Below are positions 7,363-9,570 of a stretch of DNA of 12,350 bases, piece after piece. The notes beneath the pieces were generated by a model, which was not told the DNA's origin, did no database searches, and worked only from the letters and a program-made list of their open reading frames with translations. Positions within the stretch are counted from its first letter, which is position 1; each line of letters opens with the position of its first letter. The DNA is from an uncultured delta proteobacterium (GTDB lineage Bacteria; RBG-13-61-14; DRUE01): contig CAIYYW010000239.1 of the NCBI GenBank assembly GCA_903930515.1, forward strand, positions 1 through 12,350, read 5' to 3'. Position numbers and translations under genes: made by a program.

Positions 7363-8295
7363 ATGGGAAAAGCGAAAATCAATAATATCACCGCCGGGCC
7401 CAGACCGGATTGGCTCCGCGCCAAATCCCGGCTCGGTCCGGAAGCCGGCCGAATCCGGGCCGGGCTTAGACGATTCCATCTCAACACGGTTTGCGAAGAA
7501 GCCCTTTGCCCGAACCTGGGAGAATGTTTTGGCAGGAGGACTTCCACTTTTATGATCCTGGGAAAGGTCTGCACCCGGAGTTGCCGGTTCTGCGCGGTGG
7601 AAAAGGGGAATCCTGCCGCGCCTGATCCAAATGAGCCGAGGCGTCTCGCGGAAATGGCAGGGGAATTGGGCTTGAAACACATTGTGATCACCTCGGTCTC
7701 CCGCGACGATCTCCCGGACTTCGGCGCGGAACAATTCTTTCAAGCCATTTGCGCGGTAAAGGATTTACTGCCGGACTCAAGCGTGGAAGCGCTGACCCCG
7801 GATTTTCAGGGAAGGATGGAATCGGTGGCGAGGGTGGCAAAGGCCGGGCCCGAGGTTTACAATCACAATTTGGAAACCGTTCCCCGACTTTATCCCGAGC
7901 TCCGGCCCGAAGCCGACTATCAGCGCTCGCTGGCGCTTCTCAAATGGATCGCCGAGAACGAGAAATGCATCAAGACCAAGAGCGGGATAATGGTCGGAAT
8001 GGGGGAGCGCCGGGAGGAAATGATCCGGGTGATGGAAGATTTGCGCAAAGCCGGATGCAGGATTTTGACCATCGGCCAGTACCTGACGCCGAGCCGGAAG
8101 CATTGGCCGGTGGAGAGATATTACCGGCCCGAAGAATTCGCGGAACTGGAACAAATCGGAATCCGAATGGGTTTTGAAACCGTTTTCGCAGGGCCTCTGG
8201 TAAGAAGCAGTTATCGCGCGGACAAGATTTTTAGAGGAGCGCAGGCAGGAGTGCCTGCGCCCCAAAAATCGCGCCTGAAGGCGCTCGCACATTAA
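7363..8295 (+). CDS. lipA: Lipoyl synthase LipA (radical SAM)
   Basis: LipA inserts two sulfur atoms into octanoyl groups on lipoyl-dependent subunits (pyruvate and 2-oxoglutarate dehydrogenases, glycine cleavage H protein) in the cytoplasm. The auxiliary sulfur-donating cluster site is Cys44, Cys49 and Cys55 (CEEALCPNLGEC). The radical-SAM cluster site is Cys70, Cys74 and Cys77 (CTRSCRFC). EALTPDFQG, YNHNLETV and QYLTPSRKHWPVERYY are standard family blocks, and RSSY (281-284) supplies the conserved serine ligand. The start at 7363 gives the usual short N-terminus before PDWLRAK; it lacks a ribosome binding site, consistent with leaderless translation. The family ends shortly after RSSYRAD; here about 20 more residues (from Arg291) are encoded by a palindromic repeat cluster, so the C-terminus looks extended by insertion. 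No lipB or lplA is nearby. Confidence 0.95.
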   Translation: MGKAKINNITAGPRPDWLRAKSRLGPEAGRIRAGLRRFHLNTVCEEALCPNLGECFGRRTSTFMILGKVCTRSCRFCAVEKGNPAAPDPNEPRRLAEMAGELGLKHIVITSVSRDDLPDFGAEQFFQAICAVKDLLPDSSVEALTPDFQGRMESVARVAKAGPEVYNHNLETVPRLYPELRPEADYQRSLALLKWIAENEKCIKTKSGIMVGMGERREEMIRVMEDLRKAGCRILTIGQYLTPSRKHWPVERYYRPEEFAELEQIGIRMGFETVFAGPLVRSSYRADKIFRGAQAGVPAPQKSRLKALAH

Positions 8296-8373
8296 AAGCA
8301 TAATCGCGACTAAAGTCGCTCGCACGATAAGGAATCGGGATCACGCCAAGGCGTGATCCCTCGCACAGTAAGG
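8239..8373 (+). repeat. Cluster of four short palindromic elements between lipA and alaC
   Basis: Four inverted repeats lie head to tail: GCGCAGGCA/TGCCTGCGC (8239-8260, 9-bp stem, 4-nt loop); GCGCCT/AGGCGC (8271-8284); GCGACT/AGTCGC (8306-8319); and GGGATCACGCC/GGCGTGATCCC (8337-8360, 11-bp stem). The last three share a formula: AATCG, palindrome with a 2-nt centre, TCGCAC, two variable bases, then TAA and AG or AGG. Flanks are conserved while palindrome cores differ in sequence but keep pairing. This resembles REP-like mobile palindromes. The first unit runs in frame into lipA and the last merges with the alaC ribosome binding site. Confidence 0.8.
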
Positions 8374-8376
8374 AGG
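8371..8376 (+). promoter_or_regulatory. Strong ribosome binding site for alaC, formed at the repeat edge
   Basis: AGGAGG lies 9 nt before the ATG at 8386. Its first AGG is the terminal AGG of the last palindromic unit, so the insertion boundary and the translation signal coincide. Confidence 0.8.
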
Positions 8377-8385
8377 AAAAGTTGA

Positions 8386-9570
8386 ATGTGCGCGGAATTT
8401 AATAGAATCAAACGGCTGCCGCCCTATATCCTGGGCCAGGTGGTGGGCCTGATGACCGAGGCCAGGCGCAAGGGCGAGGACATCATTGACCTGGGAATGG
8501 GCAACCCGGATCTCCCCACTCCCAAGCCGATCGTGGACAAGCTGAGGGAGGCCGCGGAGGTTGCCAAGAACCATCGTTACAGCGTCAGCCGGGGCATCCC
8601 GGGTTTGCGCAAAGCCATCTGCGACTGGTATCAGCGCCGCTACGAGGTTGACCTGGACCCGGAGGCCGAGGCGATCGTTACCATCGGCGCCAAGGAGGGC
8701 ATCTCGCATCTGGTTCTGGCAATGGTGGAATCCAAGGAAACCGTGCTGGTGCCCAACCCGACCTACCCGATCCATTATTATTCCGTGGTGATCGCCGGAG
8801 GCGATGTCCGCTCCATCCCCTTCACCGGAGAGGAGAGCGATTTTTTTGACGAGATGGTGAAAGCGCTTAAATTAACCTGGCCCAAGCCTAAATTGCTGAT
8901 CCTGAATTTCCCCCACAACCCCACCACCGCGGTGGTGGATCGGGAATTCTTCAAGAAGATCGTGGAATTCGCCCTTGACAATAACCTCTATGTAATCCAC
9001 GACCTCGCTTACGGAGACCTCTGCTTTGACGGATATCAGGCGCCTTCCTTCCTGGAAATACCGCGCGCCAAGGAAATCGGCGTGGAGTTTTACTCAATGA
9101 GCAAAAGCTTTTCCATGCCCGGATGGCGGGTCGGCTTTTGCGTCGGCAACCGGGAGATGGTCCACGCCCTGGGCCGGATTAAAAGCTACCTTGACTACGG
9201 AGTGTTCCAGCCCATCCAGATCGCGTCCGCGGTCGCGCTCAACCAGTATGAAGACCTCACCCACGGGATTGCCCAAGTATATTGCAAGCGCCGGAACGCT
9301 TTGGTGGACGGTTTGAACAAGATCGGCTGGAAGGTGAAGAAGCCCCAGGCCACGATGTTCGTCTGGGCCAAAATCCCCGAGCCGTATCTATCCATGGGCT
9401 CGCTGGAATTCTCCAAGTTCCTGCTTAATGTCGGAAAGGTCGCGGTCAGCCCCGGCGCCGGCTTCGGAGAATTCGGCGAAGGATATGTCCGGTTCGCCTT
9501 GATTGAAAACGAGCACCGGATCAAGCAGGCGGTGCGCGGGATAAAAAAAGCTCTTTTCAAAGGAAAGTGA
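8386..9570 (+). CDS. alaC: PLP-dependent alanine transaminase, AlaC type
   Basis: This 394-residue fold-type I class I/II aminotransferase most likely interconverts pyruvate plus glutamate with alanine plus 2-oxoglutarate in the cytoplasm. The sequence follows E. coli AlaC closely: [23 protein letters not shown] (30-42), [11 protein letters not shown] (65-75), [23 protein letters not shown] (205-211), [15 protein letters not shown] with the PLP lysine at Lys240, and [11 protein letters not shown]. Length equals the family norm. The neighbouring hom gene is a common partner for this AlaC-like group. Translation starts at ATG 8386 after AGGAGG. Its stop is 1 nt from the hom start, so the two are co-transcribed. 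The related LL-diaminopimelate aminotransferases share the fold; the AlaC-specific stretches make that less likely. Confidence 0.88.

Follow-up and report, generated by a model that had tools for sequence, protein, structure and literature searches.

The window analysed here, a stretch of 12,350 nucleotides, contains a lipA (lipoyl synthase) frame (7363–8295) and downstream of it an alaC-type aminotransferase gene (8386–9570), both on the plus strand and both named from an earlier sequence reading. The alaC-type gene has an orthologue, 90% identical, in a genome of the same genus, and its probable ribosome-binding site, AGGAGG, lies at 8371–8376 (plus strand). We refer to the window's own genome as G000, to the sister species of the same genus as G001, and to a genome from another family of the same order as G002. 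Four palindromes were re-located at this locus with stems of 9, 6, 6 and 11 bp, as the earlier note had described: palindrome 1, the leftmost, at 8239–8247/8252–8260 with a 4-nt centre, palindrome 2 at 8271–8276/8279–8284, palindrome 3 at 8306–8311/8314–8319, and palindrome 4 at 8337–8347/8350–8360. Their placement between lipA and alaC holds for palindromes 3 and 4 but not for palindromes 1 and 2, which lie inside the lipA frame and form its last codons. The lipA stop codon (TAA, 8293–8295) falls within the flank of palindrome 2. The lipA frame also enters palindromes in G001 and in G002, where two different palindromes of the ACCGGTTGAAAACCGGTGGCACAC type were observed in the lipA–alaC gap and the lipA frame (contig C75). 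No Rfam match was found within the window.

Palindromes 2, 3 and 4 each have ATC at the left and TCGCAC at the right, so the constancy of these flanks was confirmed. Read on the minus strand, the three take the form GTGC-GA-[perfect hairpin with a TT or TC centre]-GAT. We call this family type A and its copies in the window A1 (8268–8290, minus strand, GTGCGA-GCGCCT-TC-AGGCGC-GAT, within the 3' end of the lipA frame), A2 (8303–8325, minus strand, GTGCGA-GCGACT-TT-AGTCGC-GAT) and A3 (8334–8366, minus strand, GTGCGA-GGGATCACGCC-TT-GGCGTGATCCC-GAT). They are arranged head-to-tail, with starts spaced 35 and 31 bases. The description of their stems as completely different proved too strong: palindromes 2 and 3 (GCGCCT.GA and GCGACT.AA) are alike except for one compensatory base pair and a single base of the centre, and only the 11-bp stem is truly distinct. 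We also considered the 11-bp stem as unique and rejected this, as two relatives in G001 share its core and carry the CGCAC tag; in this long-stem subfamily, the window's GGGATCACGCC/GGCGTGATCCC corresponds to GCGATCACGCC/GGCGTGATCGC in the sister species. The AGG after the last copy, once taken as part of the motif, makes up the first bases of the alaC Shine-Dalgarno sequence near the flank of A3, and the TAA of the proposed formula belongs to it only loosely, TCGCACNNTAA having 11 matches in the genome, some of which are not palindromes. Palindrome 1 indeed lacks the TCGCAC flank and belongs to a second repeat family, type B (8239–8260, plus strand, GCGCAGGCA.GGAG.TGCCTGCGC).

Hairpins downstream of a gene might be intrinsic transcription terminators, here acting on the minus strand or bidirectionally. 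Three of the hairpins do score weakly terminator-like on the minus strand, owing to the GATT... that comes after them there, but tails such as GATTCCTTAT are weak, and it is the tag side that is conserved rather than the putative U-tract; we therefore consider this very unlikely. A terminator on the coding strand was rejected outright, as none of the four palindromes is followed by a T-run there. The stems vary and the spacers are short and similar, in place of the identical repeats and unique spacers of a CRISPR. The earlier dismissal of both a CRISPR and an ordinary terminator was thus well founded.

The strict pattern TCGNGNCTRAAGNCNCTCGCAC, in which the variable stem bases are free, gave 41 matches across the 401 contigs (3.65 Mb) of the window's own genome and 25 in G001; none was found in 39 other genomes, and the reversed-pattern control had no match in any genome searched. 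These palindromes with constant feet thus exceed chance and are dispersed genome-wide, as had been proposed. Copy counts other than those of the strict pattern come from approximately 1.05 Mb of the 3.65 Mb. In an unrestricted scan of a 0.71-Mb sample, TCGCAC was the top-enriched 6-mer beside stem-loops, approximately 10-fold, a value that is somewhat high because the sample includes contigs chosen for holding TCGCACNNTAA. The copies are spread over dozens of contigs beside many unrelated genes and in both orientations, and 10 of the 46 placeable copies lie inside an ORF, compared with about 90% of the sequence called coding by rough ORF calls. Many dispersed copies, mostly outside genes, are characteristic of REP elements. 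The best-conserved part of the type-A copies is their unpaired feet, GTGCGA and GAT.

At two free stem positions, the bases formed Watson-Crick pairs in 61 and 63 of 66 copies (58 were paired at both); two pair types occurred at the former position and three at the latter. The covariation at these positions lay above all 20,000 shuffles, although this result is no probability because the copies are related and the shuffle ignores relatedness. Moreover, the two species differ at one orthologous site, where GGGA..TCCC corresponds to GCCA..TGGC. The shuffle test and this orthologous double change indicate that pairing is kept by complementary changes, as in REPs, and bear out the suggestion of selection on pairing and not on sequence. 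Perfect dyads near genes could also be operators, bound by a dimeric DNA-binding protein; however, the stem letters vary here and the asymmetric flanks are fixed, the reverse of what is expected of an operator, leaving this explanation with next to no weight.

In G001, the last palindrome in the lipA–alaC gap aligns with A3 of the window; it reads GGGGGACT.AA.AGTCCCCC, is perfectly paired and shares with A3 the right flank CGCACAGTA(A/T)GGAGGAAAAGTTGA. A different stem stands on the same right flank, and the core therefore differs at a fixed site. At the site orthologous to A2, the sister species kept the stem and has an insertion in the loop. The family thus shows rewriting of stems with pairing kept at orthologous sites. 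The few orthologous sites that we could compare, given the small overlap between the two draft genomes, hold different REPs in one slot or unalignable sequence, and no clean empty/filled site was found among them. As for the idea of cores able to vary, the stems do differ, but most of them can be grouped into a small number of recurring subfamilies, one of which is the 11-bp one. We also observed that TTGCTTCGACAAGCTCAGCACAGGAA, or a close variant, recurs as an insertion within GCGACT..AGTCGC REP loops at two G001 loci (C588 and C402).

Published REPs bear the tag GTAG or GTGG (PMC6006769), and variation of the tag has been reported at its second and third positions (PMC3733652). Among 52 paired hairpins in the own-genome sample, the right-hand tag was TCGCAC in 36 and CCGCAC in 7, and TCCCAC or TCCTAC never followed a hairpin of the type-A kind. 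The same hairpin with a canonical GT[A/G]G tag is absent from the own genome and has a single match in G001. Ten gammaproteobacterial genomes hold 53–504 copies of the canonical-tag pattern each, against 1–5 with the GTGC tag. The type-A hairpins, with stems of 6–11 bp and a 2-nt centre, fit the GT[A/G]G superfamily (a stem of 5–13 bp and a loop of at least 2 nt by the tag), and GA separates the tag from the stem, as it does in GTAG-1, but the unpaired 5' tag is GTGC. This tag places the family outside the GT[A/G]G superfamily in its present definition; the system is REP/RAYT (RAYT, REP-associated tyrosine transposase) in the broad sense. No paper found in our search of the literature outside subscription journals names a GTGC-tagged REP family.

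The GTAG-1 REPs of Pseudomonas and Xanthomonads and the PF1–PF22 REPs (PMC3733652, PMC3686654), for example GTGGGAGCGAGCTTGCTCGCGAT, show the same unpaired 5' tag, GA, short perfect stem, 2-nt centre, conserved GAT tail and complementary stem variation, are likewise mostly intergenic, and have a RAYT flanked by copies. The anatomy GTGGGAG...CGAT of Pseudomonas and Xanthomonad REPs recurs here with GTGC in place of GT[A/G]G. In contrast to these REPs, the fourth tag base is C in essentially all of our copies, close pairs are head-to-tail and not inverted, the host genus lies outside the sampled Gammaproteobacteria, and the cognate RAYT was undetected in the own genome.

The head-to-tail arrangement was found in 9 of 10 close type-A pairs, most of them at a period of 31–36 bases, albeit among few pairs from two related genomes. 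Such dimers are reported to be absent or rare in most REP families (PMC3733652). REPINs (PMC3116915) are also short hairpin repeats with a RAYT and reported compensatory changes, but type-A copies do not pair as the inverted doublets of the same REP that make a REPIN or BIME. The regular period could have arisen if one palindrome was duplicated in tandem and the copies then drifted, with no transposase involved. However, the stems differ in 5 of 7 tight pairs, which would need paired changes or separate insertions, and the family occurs on dozens of contigs and flanks a RAYT. We consider tandem duplication improbable as the origin of the copies.

The RAYT in question is located in G001 (contig C324, 12531–13013) and has the HUH and Tyr motifs (PDHLH; YFNYVRFNPVK). 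It lies between GCGACTAAAGTCGTCCGCACAGTG and CACTGTGCGGGAGACTTTAGGCTCCCGC, which are cognate type-A copies in inverted orientation with their tags facing the gene; this REPtron arrangement, a Y1/HUH RAYT with repeats on both sides, was found for the family at this locus of the sister genome only. The sole copy seen of the gene has one in-frame TAA, either real or an assembly error, and the sequence beyond this stop scores above the cut-off for NF047646 (REP_Tyr_transpos). Among solved structures, TnpA-REP (4ER8) is the closest to it. The E. coli, S. maltophilia and Marinomonas REPtrons (PDB 4ER8; PMC8266576) share the HUH motif and single catalytic Tyr and are flanked by their own hairpins; the tag here, however, is GTGC.

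In the window's own genome, a 93%-complete draft assembly, no REP-type RAYT was found. This genome holds four full-length Y1 transposases (C94, C25, C58 and C22) and one fragment; relatives of the C324 RAYT there reach no more than 24–26% identity and belong to the Y1 transposases that carry terminal repeats of their own. Each of the four is bounded by long inverted repeats that begin with GGGGTCAG or GGGGACAG, and they fit the TIRtrons with GGGGWSAS inverted repeats (PMC3733652). Since they carry these GGGGWSAS repeats of their own, which are unrelated to the window palindromes, we rejected them as cognate enzymes. The proposed involvement of a RAYT is hence upheld in the sister species, and no counterpart was detected in the window's own assembly. 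The arms of the Y1 terminal repeats pair within a copy and differ between copies, and thereby follow the same logic of a constant foot and a variable paired arm as the palindromes.

We interpret the three flank-conserved palindromes as REP elements, single-strand hairpin substrates of a Y1/HUH RAYT (TnpA-REP), and assign this reading a probability of roughly 0.85. The active strand would be the minus strand, 5'-GTGC-GA-stem-TT/TC-stem'-GAT-3'. The RAYT most likely acts on exposed single-stranded DNA, where it binds the hairpin and its unpaired 5' tag; the tag would guide its choice of the cleavage dinucleotide, and the enzyme would then join REP copies into new sites. The stems presumably drift by paired changes with the feet fixed because the fold and the tag are recognised and not the stem letters. 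Against this reading stand the GTGC tag outside the GT[A/G]G definition, the in-frame stop in the only RAYT seen with type-A REPs together with the lack of one in the own genome, the head-to-tail pairs unlike the inverted doublets of known families, and the missing clean empty/filled site among the orthologous sites compared.

In vitro, the S. maltophilia enzyme no longer cleaved when the fourth tag position was changed (GTAC), and a fourth-position change shifted the cut of the Marinomonas enzyme to GA or GT (PMC8266576). As the tag here is GTGC and not GT[A/G]G, the cognate RAYT should have an altered guide specificity. The novelty is that canonical anatomy and enzyme are combined with a recoded tag and with pairs that are head-to-tail and not inverted. 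We speculate, rather tentatively, that the guide tag was recoded genus-wide from GT[A/G]G to GTGC, with a cut at GA or GC instead of CT/CA, head-to-tail copies, and cores exchanged at fixed sites. The GA directly after the stem was considered as the cut site expected with a GTGC guide but is uninformative, as GT[A/G]G REPs share the GAT tail. With GTGC in essentially every copy and a RAYT between two of them, the family provides a natural test of the idea of the tag as a guide.

The copies in the own genome are probably orphans because no REP-type RAYT was found in the draft, and those of the window probably now serve as the 3' end of lipA and the leader of alaC. A role of the hairpins in the lipA–alaC mRNA is possible, the palindrome region folding strongly as RNA (z = −4.9). 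One could go further and regard the palindromes as RNA elements that block 3' exonucleases or tune alaC translation, their mobility being ancient and now irrelevant. In addition to the folding, this is favoured by 16 of 22 copies between co-directed genes lying on one strand relative to the genes, by palindromes in the lipA–alaC gap of all three genomes examined, one of them from another family, and by G-T wobbles in the stems. However, copies lie beside many unrelated genes in both orientations, the most conserved part is the unpaired feet, which an mRNA stabiliser does not need, and the type-A family flanks a RAYT. We regard an RNA element as a possible but less convincing account, which is compatible with the REP reading and not mutually exclusive with it.

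Type-B palindromes number 35 copies in about a third of the own genome. The tag of the window's copy is degenerate, GGAGC compared with TGTGC in other copies. In G001, type-B palindromes tagged GTGG flank a second RAYT (C320). In the own genome, type B lies within 60 bases upstream of 12 and downstream of 11 of the 46 type-A copies, with a chance expectation of approximately 0.005 on each side, and such neighbours can make an outward-tagged doublet, which resembles a REPIN. A third RAYT-like gene in G001 (C487) has GGCGCGACATTCCTGTCGCGCCAC hairpins downstream, and in an unrelated genome (G018, C57), CGCCAGACTATGTCTGGCG palindromes form a tandem array at the locus of a RAYT-like match. Finally, at around position 7690 of contig C414 in G001, the centre of a type-B palindrome is replaced by another palindrome, TCCCGCG.GAGA.CGCGGGA, a nesting of palindrome in palindrome; the own genome has close relatives of the inner palindrome at other places.
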